DNA of 64,000 nt from Chryseobacterium aureum (lineage in GTDB: Bacteria > Bacteroidota > Bacteroidia > Flavobacteriales > Weeksellaceae), in NCBI RefSeq assembly GCF_003971235.1, contig NZ_CP034661.1:4898001-4962000 (forward strand), written 5' to 3'. Positions 52,174-55,697 of the stretch are shown here, piece by piece. The notes beneath the pieces are model-generated. The model did not search any database. It saw nothing but the letters and a program-made list of their open reading frames with translations, and had not been told where the DNA came from. The translations under genes and the position numbers were made by a program. The stretch's first letter is position 1; the number at the start of each line of letters is the position of its first letter.

Positions 52174-52827
52174 ATGCTTACAAAAGAACAAATTGCCAAA
52201 AGAATTTCAAAAGAACTGAAAGATCGTTATTATGTAAACCTGGGAATTGGAATTCCTACTTTGGTTGCCAACTATGTTCCGGAAGGTATTTCCGTAGAAT
52301 TCCAGAGTGAGAACGGAGTATTGGGAATGGGCCCTTTCCCTTTTGAAGGAGAAGAAGATGCTGATATCATTAATGCCGGGAAACAGACCATTACTATTCT
52401 GGAAGGAGGTTCATTCTTCGATTCAGCCTTCAGTTTCGGGATGATTCGTGGACAGAAAGTAGACCTTACCATTCTGGGGGCCATGGAAGTTTCAGAAAAC
52501 GGAGATATTGCCAACTGGAAAATTCCCGGAAAAATGGTGAAAGGAATGGGAGGAGCAATGGATCTTGTAGCTTCTGCTGAAAATATAATCGTTGCCATGA
52601 TGCACGTAAACAAAGCAGGAGAAAGTAAAATCCTTAAGAAATGTACACTTCCTTTAACGGGCGTAAACTGCGTAAAAAAAGTAGTTACTGAATTGGCGGT
52701 TCTGGATGTCACTCCGGAAGGATTCAGGCTGGTGGAAAGAGCACCGGGCGTTTCAGTAGAAGACATTATCAAAGCTACAGAAGCTGACCTGATTATTGAA
52801 GGAGAAATTCCTGAAATGCAGTTTTGA
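52174..52827 (+). CDS. scoB: 3-oxoacid CoA-transferase subunit B
   Basis: The beta subunit (217 residues) containing the catalytic glutamate, Glu46 in the motif SENGVLGMGPFP, which forms the enzyme-CoA thioester. NLGIGIPTLVANYVP precedes it, and GGAMDLVASAENIIV is also typical. It must pair with scoA, located 2 kb upstream beyond the antisense ABC gene. A perfect 20-bp hairpin closes its transcript just before the tandem-repeat array. Confidence 0.95.
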   Translation: MLTKEQIAKRISKELKDRYYVNLGIGIPTLVANYVPEGISVEFQSENGVLGMGPFPFEGEEDADIINAGKQTITILEGGSFFDSAFSFGMIRGQKVDLTILGAMEVSENGDIANWKIPGKMVKGMGGAMDLVASAENIIVAMMHVNKAGESKILKKCTLPLTGVNCVKKVVTELAVLDVTPEGFRLVERAPGVSVEDIIKATEADLIIEGEIPEMQF

Positions 52828-52840
52828 TCTGTTTAAAAAA

Positions 52841-52883
52841 TATACAAGTTTCGGCCTCACAAAGTGAGGCCGAAACTTGTATA
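52841..52883 (+). terminator. Very strong hairpin after scoB
   Basis: TATACAAGTTTCGGCCTCAC is followed after AAA by its exact 20-base complement. The stem is perfect, though the downstream T-run is weak. It forms the left border of the repeat array. Confidence 0.8.
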
Positions 52884-52902
52884 AGACGTCAGAAATAACA
52901 CA

Positions 52903-54840
52903 ACATAGGAAATCGTAGCGTTAAAAAAATAAGTCCTGTGAACGTTAAGAAAATTCTCCTGTCCGAAGCGCGAGACAAATTCGGAACCGATTAAGAAATA
53001 GTGACTTCGCGCAAGTTGAGAATTTTTAGAGAACAGGAATTATTTTTAGCGTAGAGCTCCAGGTCTTGAATTTTTGATTCTTTTGTTTCAAGACAAAAGA
53101 AATTAAAACAAAAAGCTATTTCATCATAAAAATAATCTGCTTATCATGTAAGCTATGATCAATATTTCTATTGTTGGCCTTAAAAATGACATAGGAGATC
53201 GCAGCGTTAAAAAAATAATTTCTGAGAACGTTAAAAAAATTCTCCTGTCCGAAGCGCGAGACAAATTCGGAACCGATTAAGAAATAGTGACTTCGCGCAA
53301 GTTGAGAATTTTTAGAGAACAGGAATTATTTTTAGCGTAGAGCTCCAGGTCTTGAATTTTTGATTCTTTTGTTTCAAGACAAAAGAAATTAAAACAAAAA
53401 GCTATTTCATCATAAAAATAATCTGCTTATCATGTAAGCTATGATCAATATTTCTATTGTTGGCCTTAAAAATGACATAGGAGATCGCAGCGTTAAAAAA
53501 ATAATTCCTGAGAACGTTAAGAAAATTCTCCTGTCCGAAGCGCGAGACAAATTCGGAACCGATTAAGAAATAGTGACTTCGCGCAAGTTTAGAATTTTTA
53601 GAGAACAGGACTTATTTTTAGCGTAGAGCTCCAGGTCTTGAACTTTTGTTTCTTTTGTTTCAAGACAAAAGAAATTAAAACAAAAAATCTGACTCGTCAT
53701 AATATAACTCTTCATCAATTAAAATTTGGATTAAGATTTCTATAATTGACCTTAAAAATGACATAGGACTCGCAGCGTTAAAAAAATAATTCCTGTGAAC
53801 GTTAAGAAAATTCTCCTGTCCGAAGCGCGAGACAAATTCGGAACCGATTAAGAAATAGTGACTTCGCGCAAGTTTAGAATTTTTAGAGAACAGGACTTAT
53901 TTTTAGCGTAGAGCTCCAGGTCTTGAACTTTTGTTTCTTTTGTTTCAAGACAAAAGAAATTAAAACAAAAAATCTGACTCGTCATAATATAACTCTTCAT
54001 CAATTAAAATTTGGATTAAGATTTCTATAATTGACCTTAAAAATGACATAGGAACTCGCAGCGTTAAAAAAATAATTCCTGTGAACGTTAAAAAATTCTC
54101 CTGTCCGAAGCGCGAGACAAATTCGGAACCGATTAAGAAATAGTGACTTCGCGCAAGTTGAGAATTTTTAGAGAACAGGACTTATTTTTAGCGTAGAGAT
54201 CCAGGTCTTGAACTTTTGTTTCTTTTGTTTCAAGACAAAAGAAATTAAAACAAAAAATCTGACTCGTCATAATATAACTCTTCATCAATTAAAATTTGGA
54301 TTAAGATTTCTATAATTGACCTTAAAAATGACATAGGAACTCGCAGCGTTAAAAAAATAATTCCTGTGAACGTTAAAAAATTCTCCTGTCCGAAGCGCGA
54401 GACAAATTCGGAACCGATTAAGAAATAGTGACTTCGCGCAAGTTGAGAATTTTTAGAGAACAGGACTTATTTTTAGCGTAGAGATCCAGGTCTTGAACTT
54501 TTGTTTCTTTTGTTTCAAGACAAAAGAAATTAAAACAAAAAATCTGACTCGTCATAATATAACTCTTCATCAATTAAAATTTGGATTAAGATTTCTATAA
54601 TTGACCTTAAAAATGACATAGGAACTCGCAGCGTTAAAAAAATAATTCCTGTGAACGTTAAAAAATTCTCCTGTCCGAAGCGCGAGACAAATTCGGAACC
54701 GATTAAGAAATAGTGACTTCGCGCAAGTTGAGAATTTTTAGAGAACAGGACTTATTTTTAGCGTAGAGATCCAGGTCTTGAACTTTTGTTTCTTTTGTTT
54801 CAAGACAAAAGAAATTAAAAAACAAAAAAGCTGCTTCATC
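52903..54840. repeat. Array of seven 285-286 bp tandem repeats (noncoding)
   Basis: Units begin with ACATAGGA at 52903, 53189, 53475, 53761, 54046, 54331 and 54616, a period of 286 bp for the first three steps and 285 for the last three. Each unit has a conserved core with dyad symmetry and a variable tail. Copies 1-2, 3-4 and 5-7 share diagnostic bases, and copies 5 and 6 appear identical. The last unit is cut short near 54840, where the DUF4197 terminator begins. No reading frame of useful length is shared by all units. Confidence 0.93.
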
Positions 54841-54854
54841 ATGAAACAGCTTTT
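54826..54854 (-). terminator. Terminator of the DUF4197 gene
   Basis: AAAAGCTGCTTCA and TGAAACAGCTTTT pair with one mismatch around TCA. On the minus strand it lies 21 bp after the stop and merges with the end of the last repeat unit. Confidence 0.75.
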
Positions 54855-54875
54855 ATATATTTAGTCTAATCTTAT

Positions 54876-55697
54876 TTATTTCCCATCCTGAGCCCCAAAC
54901 ACTTTCTGTAAAATGCTGGTAGTTCTCATGGCAGGTGTATTTCTGATTCCGCTTTCTTTATCTGCAACCATTTTAAATACGCCATTAATGGTTTCTGTAG
55001 TAACATATTCGTTAAGGTCAGTCGTTACAGCCTGTCCGGTAAACGTATTGTACTTGGAAATCAGGTTTTTCCAAAGGGTGTCAGCTCCTACCTTTCCTAA
55101 AGAAGCTTTTACTTTAGGTTGAAAAGCATTGAACAGCTGAGTCTGGGTTTTTCCCTGCAGATAGCTGGTTGCAGCATTATTACTGCCCAATAAAATATTT
55201 TTGGCATCGGTAATCGTCATGGAAGTAATGGCATTTGTGAAAATAGGAGCAGCTTCTGTGACGGCATCTTCAGCAGCTCTGTTCAGCAGTTTCACGCCTT
55301 CATCAGCAAGACTTCCCATTCCTATGGAACGCAGAGTGGTGTCAATCTTTCTTAATTTTTCAGGCATTAAAATTTTTACCGCTTCATTTTTGAAAAAGCC
55401 GTCAGTAACAGCCAGTTTTTTTACCCCGTCAGTTACCCCCATGCTTAAGGCTTCCTTTAACCCTGAGGAAATCTGAGTAGATGTAAGACTTCCGAGGTTG
55501 ACAGGTGAATTATTGGATTTAACAGAAGTGTTGGTTGCTGTGGCAGTAGGCGTTGTTGCGGTGCCATGATTTTTTACGGGAATATTAAGGTCTACACCGG
55601 TCTCATTTTTAACAGTAGATTTTAGGATATCCAGAAGCTGTGCCTGTGTTGAAATTGAGAATAATAATCCTGCTGACAGAAAGATACTTTTTTTCAT
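54876..55697 (-). CDS. DUF4197 domain protein, exported
   Basis: A 273-residue protein with a signal peptide (LFSISTQAQ, cleavage near 20), a Thr/Ser/Asn-rich linker (about 45-68), and a mostly helical DUF4197 domain (about 75-270) with GLKEALSMGVTDGVKKLAVTDG near its start. DUF4197 proteins are periplasmic or lipoproteins in proteobacteria and Bacteroidota with no assigned function. Monocistronic, and divergent from the GH20 gene. Confidence 0.88.
   Translation of the reverse strand: MKKSIFLSAGLLFSISTQAQLLDILKSTVKNETGVDLNIPVKNHGTATTPTATATNTSVKSNNSPVNLGSLTSTQISSGLKEALSMGVTDGVKKLAVTDGFFKNEAVKILMPEKLRKIDTTLRSIGMGSLADEGVKLLNRAAEDAVTEAAPIFTNAITSMTITDAKNILLGSNNAATSYLQGKTQTQLFNAFQPKVKASLGKVGADTLWKNLISKYNTFTGQAVTTDLNEYVTTETINGVFKMVADKESGIRNTPAMRTTSILQKVFGAQDGK

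Follow-up and report, generated by a model that had tools for sequence, protein, structure and literature searches.

A tandem array of seven copies of a structured, non-coding element was identified in the window, a 64,000-nucleotide stretch of the Chryseobacterium aureum chromosome. The array could be explained as locally amplified copies of a dispersed, non-coding and non-autonomous mobile repeat which would be handled as a folded single strand, a reading to which we give about an even chance. The element is apparently a family new to description. It was not described in the literature on repeats and MITEs in Chryseobacterium, Flavobacterium and Bacteroidota, which was covered through open-licence papers, and an earlier description elsewhere is possible.

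The array fills the gap between scoB, encoding 3-oxoacid CoA-transferase subunit B (52174..52827, plus strand; TIGR02428, 328 bits over the cut-off), and a convergent downstream gene of a DUF4197 protein (54876..55697, minus strand; PF13852, 249.6 bits). The seven units are arranged head-to-tail with a period of 285-286 nt (spacing of 286 for units 1-3 and 285 for units 4-7). Tandem Repeats Finder reported 52903-54833 in the window with a period of 285, 6.8 copies and 97% matches, in agreement with the original prediction, all seven unit starts of which were exact. The same prediction had taken the whole 285 bp as the structured unit, which was right for the structure and too wide for its extent: each unit is composed of a structured core of 201-202 nt, beginning two bases before the predicted start (TGACATAGG, or CAACATAGG in unit 1) and ending in ...CAAGACAAAAGAAA, and a spacer of 84 nt, with only unit 7 consisting of the 201-nt core (to 54814) and no spacer behind it.

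With R1, a covariance model trained on eleven C. aureum copies, the cores were located on the plus strand at 52901..53102 (copy 1, 232.7 bits), 53187..53388 (copy 2, 227.9 bits), 53473..53674 (copy 3, 223.7 bits), 53759..53959 (copy 4, 225.3 bits), 54044..54244 (copy 5), 54329..54529 (copy 6) and 54614..54814 (copy 7), the last three with 230.2 bits each. Core identity among the seven copies was 94-100%, and units 5, 6 and 7 were mutually identical. The spacers, to which no strand was assigned, were of type A (53103..53186 and 53389-53472) or type B (53675..53758, 53960-54043, 54245-54328 and 54530-54613), each of 84 nt. Every copy is terminated by the 3' module seen in copy 7 (TCTTGAACTTTTGTTTCTTTTGTTTCAAGACAAAAGAA, 54776..54813, plus strand), a hairpin TTCTTTTGT/ACAAAAGAA with the loop TTCAAG, and a 24-nt motif of this hairpin has 7 occurrences in the window, where 0.01 would be expected. 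A terminator-like inverted repeat around AAGTTTCGGCCTCACAAAGTGAGGCCGAAACTT (52847..52885, plus strand) lies behind scoB and precedes the array, and the same hairpin was present in related species. At the other side, the predicted fold AAAAGCTGTTTC..GAAGCAGCTTTT (54824..54850, minus strand) probably serves the DUF4197 gene as its terminator. Within the array no ORF reaches 80 aa, so the array is non-coding and a coding array was rejected. An assembly artefact or array collapse, by which the prediction might have failed, is unlikely because the genome is one contig and orthologous arrays of 2-4 copies exist in other assemblies.

In its folded state the displayed strand is a single long, interrupted hairpin, which GAC/GTC closes and whose head varies; the 3' hairpin comes after it. 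The ends of the element are fixed, as YGACnTAGG... (5') and ...RCAAAAGAA(C) (3'). The complementary blocks named in the original prediction do pair, with z = -5.8 for the RNA fold of unit 7 (54616-54860; 0 of 200 shuffles as stable) and z = -3.6 for its DNA fold. Covariation, too, bore the predicted structure out. In an alignment of 146 distinct copies, which was fitted to the covariance model and thereby favours structure, standard pairs occupied 94.1% of cells, 36 of 54 pairs were changed on both sides, and the covariation score was 0.356 against at most 0.093 in slid-structure controls and 0.139 in shuffles. Independently, RNAalifold gave 22 pairs changed on both sides among six copies.

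The six-nucleotide loop of the 3' hairpin was complementary to a hexamer just upstream, between the two hairpins, in 139 of 141 copies. The versions were mostly CTTGAA/TTCAAG, with CTTGAT/ATCAAG and CTTGAC/GTCAAG also present, and in the copies of genome G341 the whole pair was replaced by GGCGAT/ATCGCT. This contact, a pseudoknot or kissing interaction, is confirmed by this complete replacement in distant copies. In covarying pairs G.T was found 189 times and A.C 21 times (p ~ 6e-35, counting cells), and selection therefore acts on the fold of the displayed strand and not on a symmetric duplex or cruciform. By comparison of the aligned copies, the fold is maintained through compensatory change across Bacteroidota.

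The C. aureum genome (one contig, 5.07 Mb) contains 14 copies at six loci, which are the window array (7), a three-copy array behind ilvA (4775615-4776535; ilvA by TIGR02079) and single copies at 4200927, 2563789, 1258339 and 1247380, with identity down to ~70% among them. By BLAST the element was found in 26 of 39 relatives, including nearly all congeners, and when the search was widened to Bacteroidota, 59 of 296 sampled genomes scored with R1. An exact-motif scan of public sequences gave loci in Chryseobacterium, Cloacibacterium, Kaistella, Halpernia, Riemerella, Capnocytophaga, Segetibacter, Saprospiraceae and others, most of which contain the whole element by R1. Neither a blastn search of phages and plasmids with one unit nor a scan of a viral collection for one exact motif gave a match. 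In Rfam no family passed the gathering cut-off for the window element or its distant members. A sub-threshold match, BTnc231 (RF04180; 31.9 bits against a cut-off of 80.4), covered the end of copy 7 and the neighbouring terminator, and was treated as chance: it lay far below the gathering score, involved copy 7 only and did not reach the gathering threshold in distant members. An association with tRNA, suspected from a GGTTCGAATCC string near one locus (L024), was rejected, with no tRNA found there.

Two related observations were made in the same searches. In Mucilaginibacter and other MAGs (L129, L131, L162, L103) the 3' pseudoknot module is preceded by another 5' hairpin, which is GC-rich (GACGGAAAACC...GGTTTTTTCCGTC); these loci may represent a sister family in which the body has been swapped. 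Another repeat, TGTCATGCTGAGC..GTCGAAGCAT, was present in the same intergenic regions of several species (L402, L244, L437).

Similar repeats in other Bacteroidota had been thought to occur singly and not as an array, which did not hold, as arrays of 2-7 copies are common in the genus. The fetched regions contained 102 sites, 68 with a single copy and 34 with arrays of 2-7, each array always head-to-tail. At the scoB locus seven copies in C. aureum correspond to 4, 3, 2 and 2 in close relatives, in which the spacers are homologous but diverged, and concerted evolution is therefore indicated. Spacers include pieces of the adjoining flanks. The scoB array of G004 holds units of the ilvA-array type, spacer included, and at argC-argD the flanks are shared by G065 and G004, with different element subfamilies between them; copies thus exchange by recombination. 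The tree of copies contained clades by locus as well as clades by genome, reflecting both inheritance and exchange, and it therefore gives no date for the spread.

Genes may also be included in a repeated unit. In G011 (L068, 4000-8000) three tandem copies of a small cupin-like gene (named from sequence only, with no Pfam match) have element copies between them, an element-associated gene duplication. Apart from this, copies in G341 (L285-L286, C1 597-629 kb) stand behind most genes of a radical-SAM/glycosyltransferase-like cluster, in the direction of the genes and with cassette-like spacing. Two groups of clustered copies in G140 (L293, C19) lie antisense in a capsule/O-antigen-type cluster.

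The scoB site was occupied in about 22 of 50 congeners, and remnants, for example an isolated 3' hairpin, persist in others. Of 50 genomes, 31 have the element at one shared position in the argC-argD gap, with 17-85 nt left to the argD start at the loci measured, and in other genomes it was found between argE and argH (both assigned by sequence alone); C. aureum has no copy between argC and argD. One clean empty site was seen, in the argC-argD gap of G061, where the junction ATTCGA^TTAATTAAAAC lies exactly at the element position of relatives, with no target duplication. Copies in G341, compared by eye, share both ends in unrelated flanks, again with no visible target duplication. Both observations together point to a discrete insertable unit. 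For the locus at 1247380, the search for an empty site gave decayed or rearranged sites only. Copies decay at inherited sites, with remnants only at many of them, and the insertions in Chryseobacterium are mostly old and common to the genus, so that mobility would be slow or past. In a Saprospiraceae MAG (CALLXF01; L140, L111, L143, L160, L089) the element was observed within a larger MITE whose terminal inverted repeats read GGC(T/A)CTATGTYGAT.., and this carrier has an 8-bp target duplication, AACTATTT, at L140.

The orientation of the element follows replication. The GC skew of the C. aureum genome switches sign near 0.75 and 3.2 Mb, and the displayed strand was the G-rich leading strand, which corresponds to the lagging-strand template, at six of six loci; 57% of the genes sampled in this genome are on the leading strand. 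Across nine complete genomes, with the test anchored on dnaA and the skew checked in G040 and G043, 47 of 53 loci agreed, and 49 of 53 after a local GC skew check, with which two of the six exceptions, both in G002, were in agreement; orthologous sites were counted repeatedly and are not independent in this test, and its p-values are indicative only. Convergent gaps are informative because both flanking genes point at the element and gene direction cannot decide, and there 17 of 18 loci were on the leading strand. Reviews give the same signature for single-strand transposons: IS200/IS605 elements are reported to leave and enter the template of the lagging strand when they transpose, so that their orientation follows replication (PMC5371812, PMC6006769).

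Among the candidates of the original prediction, the nonautonomous mobile unit fits best, given the fixed ends in unrelated flanks, the clean empty site, the dispersal and the replication-linked strand bias; a protein-binding array would leave the single copies at most loci unexplained. Under the mobile reading, an enzyme supplied in trans would recognise the folded strand while it is single-stranded, most simply in the form of DNA exposed at the fork during replication, like that of IS200/IS605 (HUH) elements, and this putative enzyme would occasionally move or excise the element. Arrays could then be built and homogenised by ordinary homologous recombination among the copies, or by the reintegration of circles that carry an element and its spacer. 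Copies do multiply head-to-tail, and adjoining DNA is carried along. The array itself is probably no device but a by-product. Against this reading stand the lack of a linked transposase, the single clean empty site and the mostly old, genus-wide insertions.

The main rival would give the element a task in the cell as a transcribed RNA, acting between cistrons or in 3'-UTRs in mRNA processing, stability or differential expression, or released as a small RNA, with arrays raising its dosage; we regard this as possible but on the whole unlikely. A strand-specific fold with covariation, as in cellular structured RNAs, is present, and both the pseudoknot and the richness of the fold in G.U pairs are typical of RNA. 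Tandem neighbours are mostly co-oriented with the element (39 ++ against 9 --; 22:4 among leading-strand loci), a sense bias which an explanation by replication alone does not require and which counts against the mobile reading, and divergent gaps are avoided (1 against 37 convergent). The operon positions at argC-argD and argE-argH would also suit such a role, but the closest relatives differ freely in the presence of the element at the loci compared (C. aureum lacks the argC-argD copy), so the element is dispensable. It also counts against a cellular RNA that the strand follows replication even between convergent genes, that copies lie antisense in the capsule-type cluster of G140, that the window array stands beyond the scoB terminator, or that remnants only are left at many sites.

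No transposase, recombinase or reverse transcriptase linked to the element was found. IS200-type Y1 transposases (PF01797) were rejected as the partner, as their counts are unrelated to copy number: no Y1 hit accompanies the copies of G010 and G019, and G057 has four Y1 hits and no copies. The flanks of Y1 genes carry other hairpins. REP-type transposases (NF047646) were rejected likewise, as their presence does not track copy number. Unrelated hairpin repeats of their own were observed beside transposases at L493 (the G341 REP locus) and at the Y1 loci L322 and L321 (GTCAGGTCCTCAGACCTGATGG; AGTCCCGAAGGGACG; CCCCGAGGCAAGCCTCGAGGTAT).

It is improbable that the element is an unusual REP/REPIN serving as substrate of the Bacteroidetes-specific TnpA_REP subclass 2.6 (RAYT group 5). 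Genes of this published subclass are reported to have 'atypical secondary structures' on either side, of which the genome holds further copies and which are said to lack the GT[AG]G foot (PMC6006769). NF047646 genes, candidate members of the subclass, are present in many element-bearing genomes, with 11 matches in G341. But in 30 loci with NF047646 hits, taken with flanks of 1.5 kb, R1 found no element, nor did a motif scan in 23 of them; one inspected locus was flanked by a different hairpin repeat; and C. aureum has only weak, class-1-like hits despite its 14 copies. Like REP, BIME and REPIN sequences with TnpA_REP (RAYT), the element is intergenic, multicopy, structured, often clustered and non-autonomous, but those are 21-65 nt long against about 200 nt here, and the element consensus does not show a 20-60-nt hairpin preceded by a GT[AG]G foot.

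That the array is a local amplification of a dead repeat with no present function is very improbable. The variable copy number, the many decayed sites and the spacers that evolve in concert would suit it, but the compensatory change across the phylum and the near-perfect retention of the pseudoknot require selection on the fold, at least in the spreading lineage. Hardly probable at all is an integron-like, attC-type recombination site with spacers or genes as cassettes: the folded single strand with two conserved boxes, variable head and replication-strand sensitivity, the same-orientation series with intervening genes in G341 and G011 and the movement of units between loci with their spacers recall it, but the boxes CGTTAAGAAAAT / ATTTTTAGC are direct, whereas the RYYYAAC/GTTRRRY core of attC is inverted and its motifs are absent, most copies are single, orientation and spacing between genes are irregular and give no regular cassettes, and no integrase was seen among the neighbouring genes listed.

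Returning to the mobile repeat, a close likeness is to IS200/IS605 and their non-autonomous derivatives (HUH, TnpA Y1), which share with the element the lack of terminal inverted repeats and of a visible target duplication, the subterminal hairpins and, by the orientation rule reported for that family (PMC5371812, PMC6006769), the folded strand on the lagging-strand template. Unlike them, the element has neither linked tnpA or tnpB nor a cognate TnpA Y1 in cis or tracking its copies, and in place of two small end hairpins it has one hairpin of ~160 nt and a pseudoknotted hairpin.

ERIC, NEMIS and their like are transcribed MITEs of Proteobacteria, imperfect-hairpin repeats of 100-200 bp at gene ends and inside operons. 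The element is also an imperfect-hairpin repeat at gene ends and in operons, but ERIC and NEMIS have terminal inverted repeats with TA duplication, and the element, with the ends GAC.. / ..AAAAGAA and no target duplication, has neither and is no classical MITE; in contrast to them it has a conserved pseudoknot, is oriented by replication and forms arrays. It resembles REP, ERIC or IS200-derived repeats in kind, and the full set of defining features of any of them is missing.

An elaborate fold with hundreds of compensatory cells and no protein of its own means that something recognises the element. Tentatively, these repeats may be phylum-wide minimal mobile elements, with a pseudoknotted fold of ~200 nt as sole content, on which an enzyme family not so far known for such structures would act while they are single strands at the replication fork, and which would seed arrays and gene duplications in Bacteroidota. 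The family accounts for the intergenic repeats that recur, and the arrays that vary, in Chryseobacterium and its relatives and can duplicate genes, as with the cupin-like gene array of G011, and identifying its partner would reveal either a new single-strand mobility route or a common RNA element of Bacteroidota.
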